From Chitinophaga pinensis DSM 2588 (lineage in GTDB: Bacteria > Bacteroidota > Bacteroidia > Chitinophagales > Chitinophagaceae), in assembly GCF_000024005.1 (NCBI RefSeq), contig NC_013132.1:1636001-1700000 (forward strand): a stretch of 64,000 nucleotides of DNA, given 5' to 3'. Under the pieces are notes generated by a model, which worked only from the letters and a program-made list of their open reading frames with translations, had not been told where the DNA came from and made no database searches. Position 1 is the stretch's first letter. Each line of letters starts with the position of its first letter. This document shows positions 19,821-29,655 of this stretch, in pieces. The position numbers and the translations under genes were made by a program.

Positions 19821-20609
19821 TTAGCAAACAGTATTCTTCTGGAGAATCGTTTCTTCAAGAACCATGTTTTTCCACTCTTCTGGGGTAAGATTATTTAATG
19901 CTTCATGTGGTCTACGCTGATTGTATTCTTCCAGCCACTCCTCTGTTAACTCTCGTACCTGGTTAAGGTCAAAAAATAAGTATGCATCAAGAACAGCCTC
20001 ACGATATAGACGGTTAAACCTTTCTATATATCCGTTTTGCATTGGCTTACCTGGCTGGATGTATTGAACGATGATATTATTCGTTTTGCACCATAGGCAA
20101 AACTTTGTAGAAGTGAACTCCGGTCCATTATCTACTCGTATACTATTCGGCTTACCACGTGTTGTCAATATTCGGTCCAGTACCCGCGTAACCCTCTTGG
20201 CAGATAGGGATGTATCGATCTCAATAGCCAATGCTTCTCTTGAACAGTCATCCATTACATTAAAAGTCCGGAAGCGTCTATTACCAGTCATACTATCACT
20301 CATAAAATCCATACTCCAACTAACGTTAATCATTTGTTGCCTGATCAGTGGTTGCTTTATCCGGGCGGGTAATCGTCTTTTCCCTTTCCTACGTTTGTTG
20401 AGTTTTAATAGCCTATAAACACGGTAAATCCGTTTATGATTCCATTTATGGCCTGCCCTCCGCAAATAAGAGGATAGCTTCCTGAAGCCGTAATTAGGAT
20501 GCTTAAAAGCCAATTCCTGCAATGCAATAATAACTGCATTATCATTCTTACGGCTATTGTAATAGAATTGAGATCGTGGAAAGGATACAAGTCTACAGGC
20601 CCTACTCAC
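19821..20609 (-). CDS. IS3-family transposase OrfB (DDE integrase)
   Basis: The catalytic part of the transposase: HTH_21-like N-terminus, then a DDE integrase core with Asp in SMDFMSD, Asp in RVDNGPEF and Glu in NGYIERFNRLYREA. The listed start is a GTG, but the frame is open further upstream (AHELVSEEGI). The protein is therefore most likely made as an OrfAB fusion by a -1 frameshift on the A7 run at 20672-20678 near the end of orfA. Confidence 0.93.
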   Translation of the reverse strand: MSRACRLVSFPRSQFYYNSRKNDNAVIIALQELAFKHPNYGFRKLSSYLRRAGHKWNHKRIYRVYRLLKLNKRRKGKRRLPARIKQPLIRQQMINVSWSMDFMSDSMTGNRRFRTFNVMDDCSREALAIEIDTSLSAKRVTRVLDRILTTRGKPNSIRVDNGPEFTSTKFCLWCKTNNIIVQYIQPGKPMQNGYIERFNRLYREAVLDAYLFFDLNQVRELTEEWLEEYNQRRPHEALNNLTPEEWKNMVLEETILQKNTVC

Positions 20610-20641: not shown

Positions 20642-20932
20642 CTATTTGTCTTTGGGTGGCAGGGCCCAGCCTTTTTTTGTGAAGAGATCTTTAAGAAGTT
20701 GATTATCCAGGGATACATCAGCATACATCCTTTTCAGACGCGCATTTTCTTCTTCTAGATCTTTCAAACGCCTTACATCTGAGGCTTCCATACCTCCATA
20801 ACGACTCTTCCAATTATAGAAAGTCGCTTCTGAAATGCCGTGTTGTCGGCAGATCTCTTTGGTCGGTATCCCGGATTCTTGTTGTTTAAGGATAGAAACA
20901 ATCTGGGATTCTGTAAATCTTGTTTTTTTCAT
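20642..20932 (-). CDS. IS3-family transposase OrfA
   Basis: A 96-residue helix-turn-helix protein (TESQIVSILKQQESGIPTKE, then HGISEATFYNWKSRYGG) with a leucine-zipper-like helix (RRLKDLEEENARLKRMYADV), typical of IS3 OrfA. It binds the element's ends. Its 3' end holds a run of seven A on the coding strand, where ribosomes can slip by -1 into orfB. Confidence 0.95.
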   Translation of the reverse strand: MKKTRFTESQIVSILKQQESGIPTKEICRQHGISEATFYNWKSRYGGMEASDVRRLKDLEEENARLKRMYADVSLDNQLLKDLFTKKGWALPPKDK

Positions 20933-21183: not shown

Positions 21184-24100
21184 ATGAAGACTAAAATAAC
21201 AATATTATTATTTGCACTTGTATCGCCATTCATACGTGTTATGGCGCAGGCGCAAGGAGGGCTGGAAATACCCAATTATACGGCGCACTCTCCCAATGTG
21301 GCGGCGCTCGGTCAGTATGGAGAATATAAGGTAGAGCAATCAACGGGTGTACCCTCTATATCAATACCGTTATATACAATAAAGGGAGGGAAATTGGAAC
21401 TGCCAATATCTTTATCTTATCATGCCAGTGGGATAAAGTTAGATCAGGAATCCTCGTTTGTGGGACTTGGATGGACACTGAACGCAGGAGGAGCTATTGC
21501 AAGAGTTGTCAGAGATAAGGCCGATGAGGGAAGCTGGGGATTTTTAATAACCGGTAAATCTATTCCCAATTATAATTCAATTGATGAACTGGACGCCGCG
21601 GGAAAAATTGGTAATAATGCGTATTTGGCTTCCGCTGTAAATCTGGATAAGGAACCGGATAATTTTTCAGTAAACACCAATTTATTTCGTGATGAGTTCT
21701 GCTTGGATAGTACAGGAAGGCTTATAAGTATGAATCTAGATTCAAATAAGTATACCGCCGATTTTGTAAATAATATAATTATTGCAAAGGATAAAGTTGG
21801 TAATACCTACAGATTTGGCAAGGCGCTGGATGGGACGGCTACTGTTGAAACCAGTATTACAAATTATTCCTCTGTTGACGATGGTGTTGCTAACGGAACA
21901 GTTGAAAGCGGGAGATATATATCTGGCTACTATTTATCGGAAATTATTTCTGCAGATAATTCGGATACTATATTTTTTAAGTACAAAAAAGGCCATTATT
22001 TAGAAACGAAGGTAGTAAATACCACCCGTTATATTTTGGATGATGGAGGTCAGCTTTCTACAATTGATGCCAATGGACAAAACTTTGATGCGACAAGCAT
22101 AACATCTATGACCACGACAATTCCAGATGTCCAGGTTCTGGATAAAGTTCTTTTTAGGAATGGTTCACTAGAGTTTACCAGCGCTGATGACAGATTGGAC
22201 TATCCTGGTAATCCCGGTTCCCGTTTTAGAATAACCGGATTTAATGTTTTTGATAGCAAAAGGAATTTGATACAGACGGTAGCGTTTCTGAATAATAGTT
22301 ATTTTGAAAGAACCGCATGGGGGAAGCCATTAATTAACATAGATATCCCTGAGGTTAAGAAAAAGAGTCTGAAATTAAATGGAGTCGCTTTTTATGATAA
22401 AAAAGGAATGTTCATTAATGATTTCAAGTTTGAATATGATGCTACACCATTGCCTCCTAGGAATACAACCCCACAGGACTTCTGGGGGTATTATAATGGA
22501 AAGACCAATGAAACCTTAATTCCTCGTACATTTTATACTAAACTATATGACGGATCCCCGGTTTATGTTGGTTCAAATCGTGACGCTGATTTCAACTATA
22601 TGAAGGCAGGTAGTTTGAAAAAAATTACATACCCGACCGGAGGATATACAGTCTACGATTTCGAGCCTAATTATTACCTTAATAAGCAACAGCAGGAGAA
22701 CAAGGTTGAACGTTTGAAATCTGTCAGTTTGTATGCAATAAACCGTTTACCAAGTTGTGACCTGGTTGATTTTCTTAATGGCGTACCTGCTAATAATAGC
22801 TTAGAATTTACGATCACTGAGGATATTGGATCATCATCAACAAGTGCTAATCTGACTGTAAGTTTCAGTGGATATAAATATACACAGAACGCACAATCCA
22901 TGACCTTCAAGCTGACAAATCTGTCCAATAATTCAGTCTACAACTTTGAGCAGTCGCCAAGTGAAAAGGGACAACGAAAAACAGTAAATCAGCAAATTAC
23001 AATTCATCCGGGAGATAGATTCAGATTAGAGGCCCGGACTAACGGCGTTACAGAATCAGACTTTAGTATATGCAACAGCCCATATATTGAATCTTTGTTG
23101 ACATACAAATATTGGGAGGTCTCAACAATAGAAAATGTACAGCCGATACAGGCGGGTGGTTTAAGAGTAAAAAGGATCTCGAACTACGAATCTAACGATT
23201 CAATTATTACAAGAAAGATGTACGAATATGGTGATACAAAATATAATGTAGGAGTTGGGGAACTTATTACGACGCCAGGAAATAATTTTTATCGTTATCC
23301 CAAATTGTATACTGGTATCAATGCTAGTTCTGATTTGGTGAAAATGATGTGGTTTTCTTCAGAAAGCCAGGTTGAACTTGGATATAATAAAGGTTGTCCG
23401 GTAAACTATACAATGGTACAAGAGAAACTTATTGCACCGGATGGCACCCCCAATGGCAAAACAGAGTACTATTATAATCGCGCCGTAGGAGATTATGAGC
23501 CTAAATCAAGCTGGAAATATCCTTACAATACTATTATTTATCCGAGCTGGCGTAGCAATGACCTTTTGAAGGTGAAGAATTACAAGTATGAGAATAATAA
23601 TTTTGTACCTGTTAGTGCTGTGGAATATGAGTATAATGAATTACCGGTAAGGAAGGTTAAAATCTTAAAATTAATAGAATATGAACCCGATTTATATCAT
23701 GCATTCAATGGGGTACTTTTTATTAATAATCCCAGTCGATTCTATTACTATAACTATTATGTATCATGTGGGAAAATATTGAGGAAGAAGGAAATATCCA
23801 AGGAGTATGTTGGAACAGACTCAATAGTTGTTGAAACAAGCTATGAGTATAATAAATATCATGATATTAACCGGGTATTATCGGTAAATAGTAAACAGGA
23901 ATCTACAGAAACTATAACAAAGTATACAGGTGATATCAATTACAATAACCTCATATCAAAAAACATCCTTGCTTTACCGATACAACAGGAACGGAGGGTA
24001 AATGGGAACGTGACATTTGGTAATATATTAACCTACAATGAAGCAGGAAATGTTGAAGGCCGGGCAATATTTTACTCATCTGCCCCGGTAGCTCCTGTTG

Positions 24101-24573
24101 CATATACTTCCTACACAGTATTACCTCCGCTTTATAAAAAAATGCAGTCACTGGTTTACAATTCTACAACGCAAAATGTGCGGGAAATAATAGATGAAAG
24201 TACGTTTAATACAATTTATTTGTGGAGCTATTCGCGTCAATTTCCTATTGCAGAGATAAAAAATGCCAGCAGTGCAACTATTTCAGCAATATTGGGAAGT
24301 GCAAATATTGCAGCATTCGAGACCAAATCTCCTACTGATGAAGAGGTAAACTTATTCCTTGCGCCTTTAAGGAGTGATGCAAGATTAAAAACCGCTAAAA
24401 TCATTACTTATACATATTCTCCACTTGTTGGAATGACAAGTATGACAGATATCAGAAGATACACAAGTTATTATGAATATGATGGTTTAGGTAGGTTGAG
24501 GGCGGTGAAGGATGGTGATGGTGCAATCCTTAAACTGTATGAATATAAATATGGCGCTTCAATAACTCAATGA
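21184..24573 (+). CDS. RHS/YD-repeat family exported protein (first of the pair)
   Basis: A 1129-residue protein with a signal peptide (residues 1-24, ending MAQAQ). The N-terminus (LEIPNYTAHSPNVAALGQYG and the segments SISIPLYTIKGGKLELPISLSYHASG, split by GVPS) resembles the start of SpvB/RHS-type shell proteins. The body is beta-rich, and the C-terminus has YD-type repeats (YYEYDGLGRLRAVKDGDGAI). RHS shells enclose a toxic C-terminal domain; here the core and variable tail lie in the next gene, 45 bases on. Strongly AT-rich against the core genes, which suggests horizontal origin. Confidence 0.82.
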   Translation: MKTKITILLFALVSPFIRVMAQAQGGLEIPNYTAHSPNVAALGQYGEYKVEQSTGVPSISIPLYTIKGGKLELPISLSYHASGIKLDQESSFVGLGWTLNAGGAIARVVRDKADEGSWGFLITGKSIPNYNSIDELDAAGKIGNNAYLASAVNLDKEPDNFSVNTNLFRDEFCLDSTGRLISMNLDSNKYTADFVNNIIIAKDKVGNTYRFGKALDGTATVETSITNYSSVDDGVANGTVESGRYISGYYLSEIISADNSDTIFFKYKKGHYLETKVVNTTRYILDDGGQLSTIDANGQNFDATSITSMTTTIPDVQVLDKVLFRNGSLEFTSADDRLDYPGNPGSRFRITGFNVFDSKRNLIQTVAFLNNSYFERTAWGKPLINIDIPEVKKKSLKLNGVAFYDKKGMFINDFKFEYDATPLPPRNTTPQDFWGYYNGKTNETLIPRTFYTKLYDGSPVYVGSNRDADFNYMKAGSLKKITYPTGGYTVYDFEPNYYLNKQQQENKVERLKSVSLYAINRLPSCDLVDFLNGVPANNSLEFTITEDIGSSSTSANLTVSFSGYKYTQNAQSMTFKLTNLSNNSVYNFEQSPSEKGQRKTVNQQITIHPGDRFRLEARTNGVTESDFSICNSPYIESLLTYKYWEVSTIENVQPIQAGGLRVKRISNYESNDSIITRKMYEYGDTKYNVGVGELITTPGNNFYRYPKLYTGINASSDLVKMMWFSSESQVELGYNKGCPVNYTMVQEKLIAPDGTPNGKTEYYYNRAVGDYEPKSSWKYPYNTIIYPSWRSNDLLKVKNYKYENNNFVPVSAVEYEYNELPVRKVKILKLIEYEPDLYHAFNGVLFINNPSRFYYYNYYVSCGKILRKKEISKEYVGTDSIVVETSYEYNKYHDINRVLSVNSKQESTETITKYTGDINYNNLISKNILALPIQQERRVNGNVTFGNILTYNEAGNVEGRAIFYSSAPVAPVAYTSYTVLPPLYKKMQSLVYNSTTQNVREIIDESTFNTIYLWSYSRQFPIAEIKNASSATISAILGSANIAAFETKSPTDEEVNLFLAPLRSDARLKTAKIITYTYSPLVGMTSMTDIRRYTSYYEYDGLGRLRAVKDGDGAILKLYEYKYGASITQ

Positions 24574-24618
24574 TTGAACAAACCCGATTTAAGCAATTAA
24601 GATACATTGTAAAGTATT

Positions 24619-27600
24619 ATGAGTATTAATCAGTATATCATAAATATTAAACTATTGGCTGTCGCCATTATTCTGCCGGCAAGTTTATTCGCGCAGAAGC
24701 CAGGTGGAAGCCTGGGAGCCGCAACGCCTGTAACTACTCCTTCTCCATATACACATACCACCATTAATTATGTAAGAACCTGGGAGCCGGAGGCGCCGCT
24801 GAAGGATACGAATGCAATTACCTCTCCAACGAGGTTAGTCAGGGAGGTTAAACAAACTACTGAATATCTCGACGGTTTAGGACGTGCTATACAGAGGGTC
24901 GCGAAGGGAGTAAGTCCCAATGGAAGAGACCTGGTACAAATGTTTATATACGATCCATATGGTCGCGAACAGTATAGTTATCTTCAATATACTCATCAGG
25001 CATCAGGAGATGGTAAATTTAAGCGGGATCCTTTTTCTGCGCAAAACTCTTTTTATAAAAATGGTATTTTAAATCCAGGACTTTCAGGAGAGAATATTTT
25101 TTATACTAAGAAGGAAATTGAATTATCTCCCTTGGATCGGGAATTAAAAATGTATGCTCCGGGGAATAGTTGGATAAATAGACCCGTGGAGACACGTTAT
25201 CTGGTAAATGGAATAGGTGATTCCGTAAGAATCTGGACGATGGGATCCACATTTCCTGTCAGTACTAGTAGTTATGCGAATGGGCAATTGAGCAAAATTG
25301 TTTCAATAAATGAGCACGGAAATCAGACGGTTGAATATAAGGATAAAGATAGCAGGATTATTCTAAAAAAAATACAGATCAGTGACGTTCCCTCTACAGG
25401 TGCATTTGGTTGGCTTTGTACTTACTATGTATATGATGATATGGGAAATCTGCGATATGTAATTCCTCCTTCTGGGGTAGAAGCAATCAAAGGTAACTGG
25501 ACCATAACAGCGGCTGTAGATACTGGCTTATGCTATCACTATCAGTATGACGCTCGTCAGAGGATGATCGTTAAGCGAGCGCCAGGAGCTGGTCGTACTT
25601 TATTGGTTTACGATAGCCGTGACAGAGTTGTATTTGCGCAAGATTCAATACAGCGGTCCAAGGTGCCAATGGAGTGGATAGCAACGTTTTATGATGATCT
25701 GAATCGTCCGACGATGACTGCTATTTATAAAAATACCATCTCGCTTGAGGATTTACAGAAGAGTGTCGATGCCGCAGTTGCTTCAGCAACGATTTCTTAT
25801 GTAGCTCCGGCAAAAGCAGATTTAGCTGTTTATGAACATGACGGGAGGTCTTTATACACGGCAACAAATAGTATTACAGTATTTGAAGACTTTGACTCAG
25901 GTAACGGTGAAATGGTTATGGAAACTAAACCATCTACAGGTGATACAATTTCTTTACTGGCAAACAATCCACTTCCCAATATATCTCCTTCTTTATTAAC
26001 GCCATTGGCTTATACTTTTTATGATAACTATAACTATCCAGGGAAGCTCGCTTTTGTTGGTCTGGATACTGCTCAATTGCAGGTCGCAGATACATTATTC
26101 CCGGATAGAAGACCTGTAACCAATCTTACAGATGGTCTGGTTACAGGTGGTAGAGTGAGAGTGTTGGGAACGGATAATTGGCTTACGACGACAAATTATT
26201 ACGATGATAAGGGAAGGGTGCTGCAGCTTATTAGTGAAAATAATCTTGGAGGTAAAGATGTCATTTCAACTCGTTACAGCTTCAAGGGTGTTATTCTCGC
26301 CAGCTATCTACGTCATCAGAATCCGAAAAGTGTAGTTCCTCAGACGACGGTTCTGACAAGTATGACTTATGATAATGGAGGGCGTCTATTAAATATTACA
26401 AAGAGATTGAATGATGATGTCAGTAAGGAGAAAATAATTGTCTCTAACAGTTACGATGAGTTGGGACGTATGCGTCTTAAACGCTTAGGTGTTTCATCAT
26501 CAGGAGCCTTGCTTGATACTTTGAACTATACTTATAATATACAGGGATGGCCACTAGGAATTAATCGGAATTTTGTTAACAGTGGAAATCTTACATCTAA
26601 CTGGTTTGGTCAGGAGATAAGTTATGATTACGGTTTTACAAACAACCAATATAATGGCAATATTGCAGGTGTAAAGTGGAAAACAAGGGCAGATAGCACC
26701 TATGCTTATGGTTATAGCTATGATAGAGCAAATCGCCTGCTGAGTGCCTTTTTTACGCAAAGAAATGGCGTGAATTGGTCTCAGGGAACGAAAGATTTTT
26801 CTGTCAGTAATTTGAGTTACGATGCCAATGGAAACATTAAAACCATGTTACAGAAAGGATTGGTAGGTACAACTAGCAAAACAATAGATAGCCTCGTATA
26901 TACCTACTCCGCTAACAGTAACAGGCTGCTAGGTGTAAAGGATGTAGATTCATCAATTACAAAGTCTGCAAAGCTGGGTGACTTCATAGATCTTAATACT
27001 GGTGTTCAGGACTATTACTATGATAACAATGGAAACATGGTTGCCGACCAGAACAAAAGAATAACTTCAATTACTTATAATCATCTGAATTTACCGACTG
27101 TAATTACGATGGTGGGAAAAGGAACGATTACCTATACATATGATGCCGCAGGTCGTAAATTGTCGAAAACAGTGATTGATAATACAGGTAACTCTCCTAA
27201 GACTACTGTCACAGACTATGTTGGAGCATTTGTATATAAACAAGATAGTCTTGAATTCATAAGTCACGAAGAGGGCAGAATAAGACCTGTTTATAAAACA
27301 GGAGAGTCGGTTCGGTATGCTTATGATTATTTTGAAAAAGATCATCTCGGTAACATCAGGACTGTGCTCACAGACCAGACTGACTTTACTATGTACGCAG
27401 CTTCAATGGAAGTGGATGCAGGGGCGAAAGAAGCCGCTTTATTCAGTAATATAGAAGAAACAAGGGTAGAAACTCCCACCGGTTATCCACAGGATAATAC
27501 AACAGAAAAAAACAAATCAGTTGCCCGGTTAAATGGTAAGACAGGTGGGAAAAAAATTGGTCCATCACTTGTGTTACGGGTAATGGCAGGTGATACTGTA

Positions 27601-29010
27601 CGGGTCAATGCGCGAGCGTTTTACAAGTCCCAGGGGCCTAAGGATGATGATAAACAGGCTCCGGTCGAAGATATGTTGGCTGGACTTCTACAGGCATTTG
27701 GAGGGAATTCTGTGAGAAACGGAGAGCATAATGTTGTAATGGTTTCAAATACAACACCGTTTAATAGTGATTTTTATGGTAACACATATCAGCGATTAAA
27801 GGAAAAAAATAATGACAATGGGCAATCAAATCGTCCCAAGGCATATTTAAATTTTGTACTATTTGATGATGATTTTAAATTGGTAGAACAGAATAGTGGT
27901 GTACGACAGGTAAAGGCTAGTCCGGATGAGTTACAGGAATTGGCGGTAGAGAAGATGAGTGTGGCAAAGAGCGGGTATTTATACGTTTATACAAGTAATG
28001 AAAGTCAGCAGGATGTTTATTTTGACAATGTGATTTTAGGATTAAATAGTGGACCTTTGCTGGAGGAAACACATTATTATCCGTTTGGGTTAGTAATGAA
28101 AGGAATCAGCACAAAGGCCGCTGGATCTCTAGGCAATAGAATGAGGTTTAATGGAAAAGAGGCCCAGATTGATGAATTTATGGATGGTAGTGGTTTGGAG
28201 CAATATGATTATGGAGCTAGAAACTATGACGCCCAATTAGGATTGTGGCATAATATCGATCCTTTGGCAAATCTCAGCAGAAGGTGGTCGCCATATGTTT
28301 ATGCATATAATAATCCTTTACGTTTTATAGATCCAGATGGGATGTTACCAGAAGATAACTTAGACAAAAATAGTGTTGGGATGATGTCAAAGCAATCTAA
28401 AAAAATGAGTTCTGACAACGCAGTGACGTCTGAGTCTAAAAAAGCATTAGAGAATGTCCTTAATGAGGATGCTCTAATAGAACGTAAACAGATGGCAAAA
28501 AAAATGGATGAGAACGGATCTTTTCTCGATATGATCTTGGGGGAACAAGGGCCAGGAAAAGGAGCAAAAAAGACTGGTAGTAAGAAGGAGAACAAAGCTG
28601 ACCCCGCACCTGAACCTCAGATTATTTCTCTCGTTAAAAGAGCACGGGTTGCGCTAACTAATAATACGGTCCTTGTTAAGATAATGTTTAATGAAAAGAC
28701 AAATAAAATTGAAAAATTTGATTTTTCAATAGGAGGTAAGCATGGAGAAATTAAATCTATCGGAGACTTCGACCAACAAATTTTCCAGGGGGTGGTCACC
28801 TATAAGTTGTATTTCGAAGCGACATTAGGAGTAGAAGAATCTGTATCGGCTGAAATGACAAAAGAAGGTGGATCTTTTGGAGCGAAAATTGGGACGGAGA
28901 CTAAACAAACAAGTGGAGAAACACATCACGTGGTTATTTATGGTAATATTTATAAAGGGCAAATAACGTTAAGTGGATCATTTCTGGCACCGGAAGACAT
29001 CGAAGAATAA
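24619..29010 (+). CDS. DUF6443/RHS-core protein with variable C-terminal domain
   Basis: A 1463-residue exported protein (signal peptide ending LFAQ). Order: DUF6443-like N-terminus (TTEYLDGLGRAIQRVAKGVS), many YD repeats, then the RHS-associated core, with YDYGARNYDAQLGLWHNIDP, and DPDGM near residue 1240. After it comes a Lys/Glu/Ser-rich linker and a beta-rich end domain of about 130 residues with no recognised family. By family rule that tail is the toxin or effector. Its alternating Ser/Thr and hydrophobic residues (VEESVSAEMTKEGG, then FGAKIGTETKQTSG) recall beta-hairpin pore formers, which is speculation. A tiny membrane gene follows by 4 bases. Confidence 0.85.
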   Translation: MSINQYIINIKLLAVAIILPASLFAQKPGGSLGAATPVTTPSPYTHTTINYVRTWEPEAPLKDTNAITSPTRLVREVKQTTEYLDGLGRAIQRVAKGVSPNGRDLVQMFIYDPYGREQYSYLQYTHQASGDGKFKRDPFSAQNSFYKNGILNPGLSGENIFYTKKEIELSPLDRELKMYAPGNSWINRPVETRYLVNGIGDSVRIWTMGSTFPVSTSSYANGQLSKIVSINEHGNQTVEYKDKDSRIILKKIQISDVPSTGAFGWLCTYYVYDDMGNLRYVIPPSGVEAIKGNWTITAAVDTGLCYHYQYDARQRMIVKRAPGAGRTLLVYDSRDRVVFAQDSIQRSKVPMEWIATFYDDLNRPTMTAIYKNTISLEDLQKSVDAAVASATISYVAPAKADLAVYEHDGRSLYTATNSITVFEDFDSGNGEMVMETKPSTGDTISLLANNPLPNISPSLLTPLAYTFYDNYNYPGKLAFVGLDTAQLQVADTLFPDRRPVTNLTDGLVTGGRVRVLGTDNWLTTTNYYDDKGRVLQLISENNLGGKDVISTRYSFKGVILASYLRHQNPKSVVPQTTVLTSMTYDNGGRLLNITKRLNDDVSKEKIIVSNSYDELGRMRLKRLGVSSSGALLDTLNYTYNIQGWPLGINRNFVNSGNLTSNWFGQEISYDYGFTNNQYNGNIAGVKWKTRADSTYAYGYSYDRANRLLSAFFTQRNGVNWSQGTKDFSVSNLSYDANGNIKTMLQKGLVGTTSKTIDSLVYTYSANSNRLLGVKDVDSSITKSAKLGDFIDLNTGVQDYYYDNNGNMVADQNKRITSITYNHLNLPTVITMVGKGTITYTYDAAGRKLSKTVIDNTGNSPKTTVTDYVGAFVYKQDSLEFISHEEGRIRPVYKTGESVRYAYDYFEKDHLGNIRTVLTDQTDFTMYAASMEVDAGAKEAALFSNIEETRVETPTGYPQDNTTEKNKSVARLNGKTGGKKIGPSLVLRVMAGDTVRVNARAFYKSQGPKDDDKQAPVEDMLAGLLQAFGGNSVRNGEHNVVMVSNTTPFNSDFYGNTYQRLKEKNNDNGQSNRPKAYLNFVLFDDDFKLVEQNSGVRQVKASPDELQELAVEKMSVAKSGYLYVYTSNESQQDVYFDNVILGLNSGPLLEETHYYPFGLVMKGISTKAAGSLGNRMRFNGKEAQIDEFMDGSGLEQYDYGARNYDAQLGLWHNIDPLANLSRRWSPYVYAYNNPLRFIDPDGMLPEDNLDKNSVGMMSKQSKKMSSDNAVTSESKKALENVLNEDALIERKQMAKKMDENGSFLDMILGEQGPGKGAKKTGSKKENKADPAPEPQIISLVKRARVALTNNTVLVKIMFNEKTNKIEKFDFSIGGKHGEIKSIGDFDQQIFQGVVTYKLYFEATLGVEESVSAEMTKEGGSFGAKIGTETKQTSGETHHVVIYGNIYKGQITLSGSFLAPEDIEE

Positions 29011-29014
29011 TTTT

Positions 29015-29137
29015 ATGGATACAGAACAACACAGAATCGCTGAAATGCTTGCATATTTAGATAAGTATTTCTTTGCCATCTTCGTGGCAGTATTGGCATA
29101 CATAGTGTTAAGAATGGTGTTTAGGAAACGTCAGTAG
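29015..29137 (+). CDS. 40-residue single-span membrane protein, RHS partner
   Basis: ATG 29015 lies 4 bases behind the RHS stop, so translation is probably coupled. The product begins MDTEQHRIAEMLAYLDKY, has one span FFAIFVAVLAYIVLRMVF and ends in the basic RKRQ, giving an N-out or N-in single-pass topology. In polymorphic toxin loci the gene directly behind the toxin is usually its immunity gene, so a membrane-sited immunity or accessory role is inferred. No family is recognised. Confidence 0.6.
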   Translation: MDTEQHRIAEMLAYLDKYFFAIFVAVLAYIVLRMVFRKRQ

Positions 29138-29535
29138 TCTAGAAATGTTTAACAAACATCCTGGGCAATCTTAGAGGATAATTTGCAAGTATATTCCTCA
29201 AATCACTTTGCCGAAATAGTAAAGGGACTGTCATATGACAGTCCCTTTACTATTTCGGCAAAGTAATTTCAATCAATTAGGCACATAATTGGTTATTAGT
29301 GTTTAACTTCTATAAGGCTCCGTATTGATACCAGGCACTTAGTGCTCATTGAGTAGAAGGGAAATTTATGTCGATCATTTCAGGAAAAAGTTTATCCTGT
29401 GCGGTCGGACCGTAGCATTGGTCTTTTTTAAGGAAATGGAAGGAATGTCCTACAACCGGAAAAACGACGAGTGTCGAACCACGCGCGTAAATGAAGTCTT
29501 CCTGTCTATCGCCCGTCAGGCCCACGAATTACCAC
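29138..29535. other. Spacer between RHS locus and tRNA-Glu
   Basis: About 400 bases that contain the palindrome listed separately and no convincing gene. A 90-codon plus-strand frame (29349-29621) runs through the tRNA and is rejected. Confidence 0.5.
29201..29268. repeat. 68-bp near-perfect palindrome behind the RHS operon
   Basis: Two 34-base arms centred on CATATG at 29232-29237 pair at 33 of 34 positions (the exception is 29204/29265). The position after the last RHS gene fits a terminator. The length and near-perfection exceed what termination needs and suggest selection, a recombination site or a recent origin. Confidence 0.85.
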
Positions 29536-29574
29536 AAAATAAAAACGGAGATAATACTTTCGTACTATCTCCGT
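29536..29574 (-). terminator. Terminator of tRNA-Glu
   Basis: On the minus strand a hairpin (ACGGAGATA paired with TATCTCCGT, plus an inner TAC/GTA pair across one mismatch) is followed by TTTTTATTTT, starting 7 bases past the encoded CCA end. Confidence 0.85.
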
Positions 29575-29580
29575 CCGTGT

Positions 29581-29655
29581 TGGTACCGCGTACGGGAGTC
29601 GAACCCGTCATTCCTCCGTGAAAGGGAGGCGTCTTAGCCGATTGACCAACGCGGC
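29581..29655 (-). tRNA. tRNA-Glu (anticodon TTC), CCA encoded
   Basis: Cloverleaf on the minus strand: acceptor GCCGCGT with ACGCGGT (the top pair is G-U), anticodon stem CCTCC/GGAGG around CTTTCAC with anticodon TTC, T-arm ACGGG-TTCGACT-CCCGT, discriminator A and an encoded CCA at 29581-29583. It decodes GAA and GAG. It marks the boundary between the AT-rich RHS block and the glycolytic genes. Confidence 0.95.

Follow-up and report, generated by a model that had tools for sequence, protein, structure and literature searches.

An RHS locus in Chitinophaga pinensis DSM 2588 raises the question of what a 40-residue membrane protein does directly behind the variable tail of a large RHS protein. 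The locus was analysed within a window of 64,000 nucleotides, to which the positions below refer. An earlier note on this DNA had described an RHS shell divided over two exported proteins and, four bases behind the second, a small one-span gene as a candidate immunity or holin-like partner. Our preferred answer, to which we give a probability of about 0.6, is that this is an RHS polymorphic toxin locus in which the tail is the toxin and the 40-residue protein is its immunity.

Gene order, shell and borders of the locus

Gene A (21184-24573, + strand) encodes 1129 residues and gene B (24619-29010, + strand) 1463 residues, and the gene for the 40-residue single-span membrane protein (29015..29137, + strand) follows. 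All three genes run in the same direction, with 45 nt between A and B and 4 nt between B and the small ORF. The stop of B ends at 29010, the ATG lies at 29015 and the product has one hydrophobic span, as had been reported. Both large proteins start with what looks, by eye only, like a Sec-type leader. The block is indeed AT-rich, with a GC content of 37-40% compared with 42% on the left and 47% on the right, and the borders described earlier were located on either side: IS3-family transposase ORFs (19821-20609 and 20642-20932, - strand) and tRNA-Glu(ttc) (29581-29655, - strand). An intergenic scan returned three terminator-like sites, of which none lies directly behind the 40-residue gene, and one promoter-like site, which is below the mean for shuffled sequence.

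The site beside the tRNA-Glu and a GAPDH-like gene differs among relatives. Less than 1 kb replaces the RHS block in G294, about 8 kb of other genes lie at its site in G357, another RHS pair is present in G308, and no RHS match was found within the stretch fetched from G332 and G309. The presence of the RHS block thus varies among relatives. In G327 (L200:1-4500), the site holds a broken gene A, with the contig beginning inside it, and behind it a multi-span ORF of 145 residues, but no B. This ORF matches none of the 66 downstream proteins described below at E 10 and is possibly a left-over immunity gene.

The shell part of B, residues 1-1241 (24619..28341, + strand), comprises the leader, DUF6443 (residues 67-188, E 4e-35), YD repeats and an RHS core ending PLRFIDPDG. 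The core is recognised by Rhs_assc_core (TIGR03696; residues 1153-1242, E 3e-14) directly before the variable tail, and it matches YenC2 at E 8.9e-6. No PAAR domain was found in B in the search in which DUF6443 was the sole match up to E 1. The part of PMC8765631 that deals with self-cleavage describes a PxxxxDPxGL motif with an Asp pair, which in RhsA is D1324/D1346, 22 apart. B carries PLRFIDPDGM, with M replacing the L, and D1214/D1238, spaced by 24, are likely the corresponding self-cleavage pair. Among 68 B proteins, a stricter cleavage pattern matched 21, while a loosened two-residue pattern matched 47, with Asp at both positions in 35.

No Pfam or NCBIfam family matches gene A up to E 1. 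Its link to the RHS shell consists of a YD-like C-terminus, seen by eye, and recurrence upstream of B: an A-like match precedes B in 57 of 69 loci, and contig ends cut into some of the remaining 12. The earlier picture of a shell shared by two exported proteins holds for B, with its RHS core, but the part of A in the shell is not confirmed.

Tails, downstream genes and gene A across the genus

RHS polymorphic toxins are described as having a variable tail after the RHS repeats, an adjacent immunity gene and polyimmunity loci (Zhang et al. 2012, PMC3482391, in the part on RHS systems). Relatives of the B shell were found at E 1e-100 in 75 of the 79 genus genomes, representing many candidate toxin-immunity pairs. 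For comparison, 69 loci were taken, namely the 60 top-ranked of the listed foreign matches, 8 of 9 same-genome regions and the window; L027, with fragmentary matches, was left out. Three were then dropped, one running off its contig (L081) and two almost without a tail (L021 and L026), giving 66 usable loci. In these, the match to the shell stops at about residue 1242, beyond which the tail varies. As downstream gene we took the longest of the ORFs with a start between -70 and +160 nt relative to the stop of B, except in the window, for which the 40-residue ORF was chosen by hand. Under this rule, which has closeness built in, 63 of the 66 downstream genes start no further than +27 nt from the stop.

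A replaceable tail with a co-varying downstream gene in relatives had been set beforehand as the test of toxin-immunity pairing. Similar tails are found in 38 of 2,145 locus pairs and similar downstream genes in 17, and all 17 of these pairs are tail-similar as well. Label permutation, which ignores the shared ancestry of loci, gave at most 4 overlapping pairs in 10,000 runs. At the threshold used, 21 of the 38 tail-similar pairs are without a similar downstream gene. Co-variation is thus found at the level of the class, across the 66 loci, and for this reason immunity is the best reading of the 40-residue gene.

The nature of the tails and of their partners points in the same direction as this class pattern. 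Nine Pfam families occur among the 66 tails, including Peptidase_M91 with seven members, and TseH, Tox-MPTase3, Ntox44, Ntox24 and CHAP were each matched by a single tail; Imm53 was matched once among the downstream genes. A Taxilin match among the tails is probably due to chance. By a crude rule, 34 of the downstream proteins look lipoprotein-like or bear a leader, 10 have several spans, 2 are small with a single span and 20 fall outside these groups, so that most partners (46 of 66) look exported or membrane-bound, as an exported toxin would often need. In 13 instances a relative of a downstream protein recurs elsewhere in the loci; in 12 of these it lies 0.5-2 kb downstream of B, and extra copies are therefore usual here. 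As read from sequence, the class pattern is that of a polymorphic toxin-immunity system with polyimmunity.

Several individual loci show further arrangements. Three tandem copies of one downstream (immunity-like) gene are present in L128 (L128:9315-11412). In L113, an 82-aa ORF located 398 nt past the B stop is, by eye, partly near-identical to the 63-aa two-span partner of L127, and adjoins an unrelated tail. Downstream of a complete RHS locus, L020 carries an orphan RHS core and tail followed by a 163-aa lipoprotein-like gene (L020:11325-12721), the product of which resembles, by eye, a lipoprotein of L021. Alpha/beta-hydrolase-like GxSxG motifs were noticed by eye in the tails of L126, L129, L079 and L109; all of these except L109 have a downstream gene that looks multi-span.

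Gene A follows a different course from the tail. In the 49 loci with long A and B, the median pairwise identity is 25% for A compared with 58% for the B shell, and A is best conserved near residues 50-100 and over its last ~80 residues. Of the 1,176 pairs of these loci, 32 share an A type (at least 50% identity) and 19 share a tail type, and the two coincide in 2 pairs, with 0.5 expected by chance; the tails are unlike in 30 of the 32 A-similar pairs. For comparison, 10 of 10 pairs with similar downstream genes in the same set are also tail-similar. The A type of the window itself reappears in L123, at 60% identity, beside a different tail and partner. This variability, and an exchange that occurs mostly apart from the tail, suggest that A is a third, perhaps targeting, module. 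It looks like a module exchanged mostly separately from the tail, and a targeting role would be in keeping with its variability.

The tail and the 40-residue gene of the window

The tail of the window (residues 1242-1463 of B; 28342..29007, + strand), which is the predicted toxin, has no Pfam match up to E 10, Ntox25 included. No paralogue of it was found in its own genome, and there was no match at E 0.01 among 533 candidates of comparable full length. Tail matches are present in 2 of 294 family genomes and in 3 of 79 genus genomes, self included in both counts, and a profile search of 394 family genomes matched self and G055. The genome collection contains one confirmed tail locus, in C. filiformis. 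One of the three genus genomes, G349, was dropped as chance; its match (E 0.046) falls within an ORF whose start resembles, by eye, that of a flavin monooxygenase. Six relatives of the tail were found, P0001 (C. filiformis, G307), P0002 and P0006-P0009, with lengths of 157-239 aa. All six are standalone proteins and none is RHS; a lipoprotein-like leader was seen by eye in four, and P0008 and P0009 are without one as predicted. Around the relatives in L034 and L036, the best short frames score only 12 and 13 against the 40-residue protein. The description of the tail as belonging to no known family is accurate as far as Pfam goes, yet the standalone relatives form a small family of their own.

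Positions invariant in this tail family include F, G-x-HG, G, GV-x-T, N, G and P. An AlphaFold2 model of the tail places eight strands within its last 130 residues. Two relatives mostly lack an insert at about 161-190, which is poorly predicted; elsewhere in this part, 10-residue means of pLDDT are 67-88. The model is weak overall (pLDDT 61, pTM 0.43), and that of P0007 is no better (62 and 0.42). In the model, the tail ends in a beta domain (about residues 1332-1463) that belongs to no Pfam family. Fold searches returned nothing above noise, and no recognised catalytic signature was found in the beta domain. The tails of L087 and L094, a type present in 2 of 79 genus genomes, were also compared; their ends look alike and their partners are multi-span. 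Homology with these beta-rich tails was rejected at an hhalign probability of 0.4%, and the best of the 65 other tails reaches 4.1% when each is compared with the window tail as a single sequence.

Chance is an unlikely source of the small ORF's coding score, strong span and position. In 20,000 simulated downstream sequences, an ATG ORF of at least 40 aa within 30 nt was obtained in 3.2%, and one with an equally strong hydrophobic span in 0.01%. The codon score of the small ORF is above that of 99.8% of 2,000 random sequences and above only 24% of equal-length pieces of the window's long ORFs. No paralogue was found in its own genome. The small protein is matched at E 10 or better by 22 of 79 genus genomes, self included, but besides self only G344 falls below E 0.1, at 4.4e-4 for the one genome and about 0.03 over all 79. 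The G344 relative has 42 residues, the same MDT start, YFFA and VFRK in common and 40% identity. It scores 78 against the small protein of the window (67 for its own longer start), compared with 27 for the next best of 924 TM-bearing short frames (64 loci, 794 kb, nested starts counted), and none of 20,000 segment-preserving shuffles reaches 78. Differences between the two genes number 20, 14 and 23 by codon position, the second changing least. With this diverged copy in one other species, the 40-residue gene looks real. None of the other 65 downstream genes in the comparison is as short.

The G344 copy sits among non-RHS genes, away from RHS, and no match to the window tail was found in that genome; it would fit an orphan immunity gene. 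A profile search of 396 order genomes gave 8 matches including self, and the 7 others, weak and partial, were dropped. In C. filiformis G307, the bearer of a standalone tail relative, the genus search found no small-gene match at E 10, and the order-genome profile gave a weak 26-residue match inside a 604-residue frame. The tail and the 40-residue gene were not found together in any other searched genome, and their pairing thus rests on position and on the class rule. On that footing the earlier proposal of an immunity gene is the best reading.

Competing explanations and known systems

In the reading of a toxin with its immunity, A and B would be exported, and B, perhaps with A, would build an RHS shell around its own C-terminal tail. 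The Asp pair would free the tail after DPDG, near M1242, as the motif suggests, and A, to judge from its variability, probably confers binding or delivery specificity. The freed beta-rich tail, to judge from the membrane nature of its partner, would attack competing bacteria at their envelope or membrane, and the 40-residue protein in the producer's membrane would neutralise it, as its position, the co-variation in the class and the orphan homologue indicate. The fullest version, a three-part weapon whose modules are swapped separately, namely a hypervariable targeting protein A, a conserved shell B and a cassette of a new membrane-acting beta-toxin and its 40-residue single-helix immunity, is unlikely to be correct as a whole. 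The beta domain may not be toxic, since its relatives are standalone, without a small-gene relative near the two that were read and with none in C. filiformis.

Among the other explanations, the one to be taken most seriously, though it is improbable, keeps the RHS toxin system and makes the 40-residue gene unrelated or a leftover, with protection coming from elsewhere or lost. The small gene has just one convincing relative, an orphan located away from RHS, and is itself the shortest among the 66 downstream genes; C. filiformis has the standalone tail relative without the small gene at E 10. Its distance of 4 nt nevertheless fits the immunity slot seen in the other loci, and the alternative + strand frames of at least 30 aa that start before the tRNA gene (29349-29621 and 29491-29637) run into that gene. 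It is more doubtful still that the tail, instead of being a toxin, serves in adhesion or ligand binding, as the domain may do in the standalone proteins, and that the small gene is a membrane accessory. In favour of this reading, the six relatives are standalone and non-RHS, four of them with lipoprotein-like leaders by eye. Against it, the tail fills the toxin slot, and known toxin families are present among the other tails of this shell; the small gene stands at the usual distance behind it. A holin-like protein releasing the A/B complex or the tail would be small, with one span and a basic C-terminus, as the 40-residue protein is. A release gene should, however, recur with the shared shell, and the downstream gene instead changes with the tail; by a hydropathy rule, a small one-span gene is found in just two of the 66 loci, the window and L099. 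The holin-like alternative of the earlier note is thus very unlikely.

The kind of system proposed, a toxin tail with its immunity, is already known and the locus type is common in the genus, while the combination of this tail with its tiny partner was found only here. What appears to be new is that the tail belongs to no Pfam family, that its partner has about half the length of the CdiI proteins that give immunity to CDI ionophores, and that the first protein is hypervariable. In a literature search covering few subscription journals, we found no paper naming DUF6443 or dealing with two-protein hypervariable Bacteroidetes Rhs systems with immunity, and recognised none describing this pair of tail and small gene. 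If the preferred reading is true, this small operon offers a test of whether a toxin can be blocked by one helix of 40 residues, and protein A provides a handle on target choice or reach by leader-bearing, PAAR-less Bacteroidota RHS proteins.

The loci share with the RHS polymorphic toxins, as treated in the relevant part of PMC3482391, the layout of tail and immunity gene, the Ntox24 and Tox-MPTase3 families and polyimmunity. Unlike in those systems, a separate hypervariable exported protein A precedes the shell gene; many partners are lipoprotein- or membrane-like, where that part names one lipoprotein family (Imm65) and two two-helix families; and the tail and partner of the window, unlike the families there, match no Pfam family. 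Membrane immunity is known from Tse5/Tsi5, described in the corresponding part of PMC9637101 as a T6SS-delivered, pore-forming Rhs effector, for which an alpha-pore is suggested, with a membrane immunity protein. The Rhs shell is common to both, as are the C-terminal toxin and membrane immunity protein (both predicted here), but Tsi5 has two predicted spans compared with one, and the window has a beta-rich tail and no PAAR match. The CdiI proteins of CDI ionophores are small, hydrophobic, two-helix proteins of 72-100 residues in the section of PMC11630599 that covers them. A small hydrophobic partner beside the tail is shared with these systems, with membrane action presumed here, but the partner has 40 residues and one span. 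Ntox25 is given there as a predicted beta-barrel ionophore domain, and is the family that the window tail did not match in Pfam.

The TcB-TcC cocoon of Tc toxins, as far as PMC8765631 portrays it, likewise has a two-protein RHS shell and an Asp self-cleavage motif, and the B core matches its YenC2. It differs in that A has no SpvB/TcdB match (Pfam up to E 1) and both proteins here seem to bear leaders. The co-varying immunity-like genes here suggest bacterial targets. Exported proteins with swappable tails and downstream immunity, sometimes encoded by two genes, are also a feature of the TANFOR toxins of Bacteroidetes in the part of PMC7073777 devoted to them. The TANFOR domain (TIGR02542) was not matched in A or B. 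Elsewhere in the same genome, outside the window, one sub-cut-off TANFOR match (G000:C1:3412950-3413330, E 2.8e-5) lies in a 2047-aa frame.
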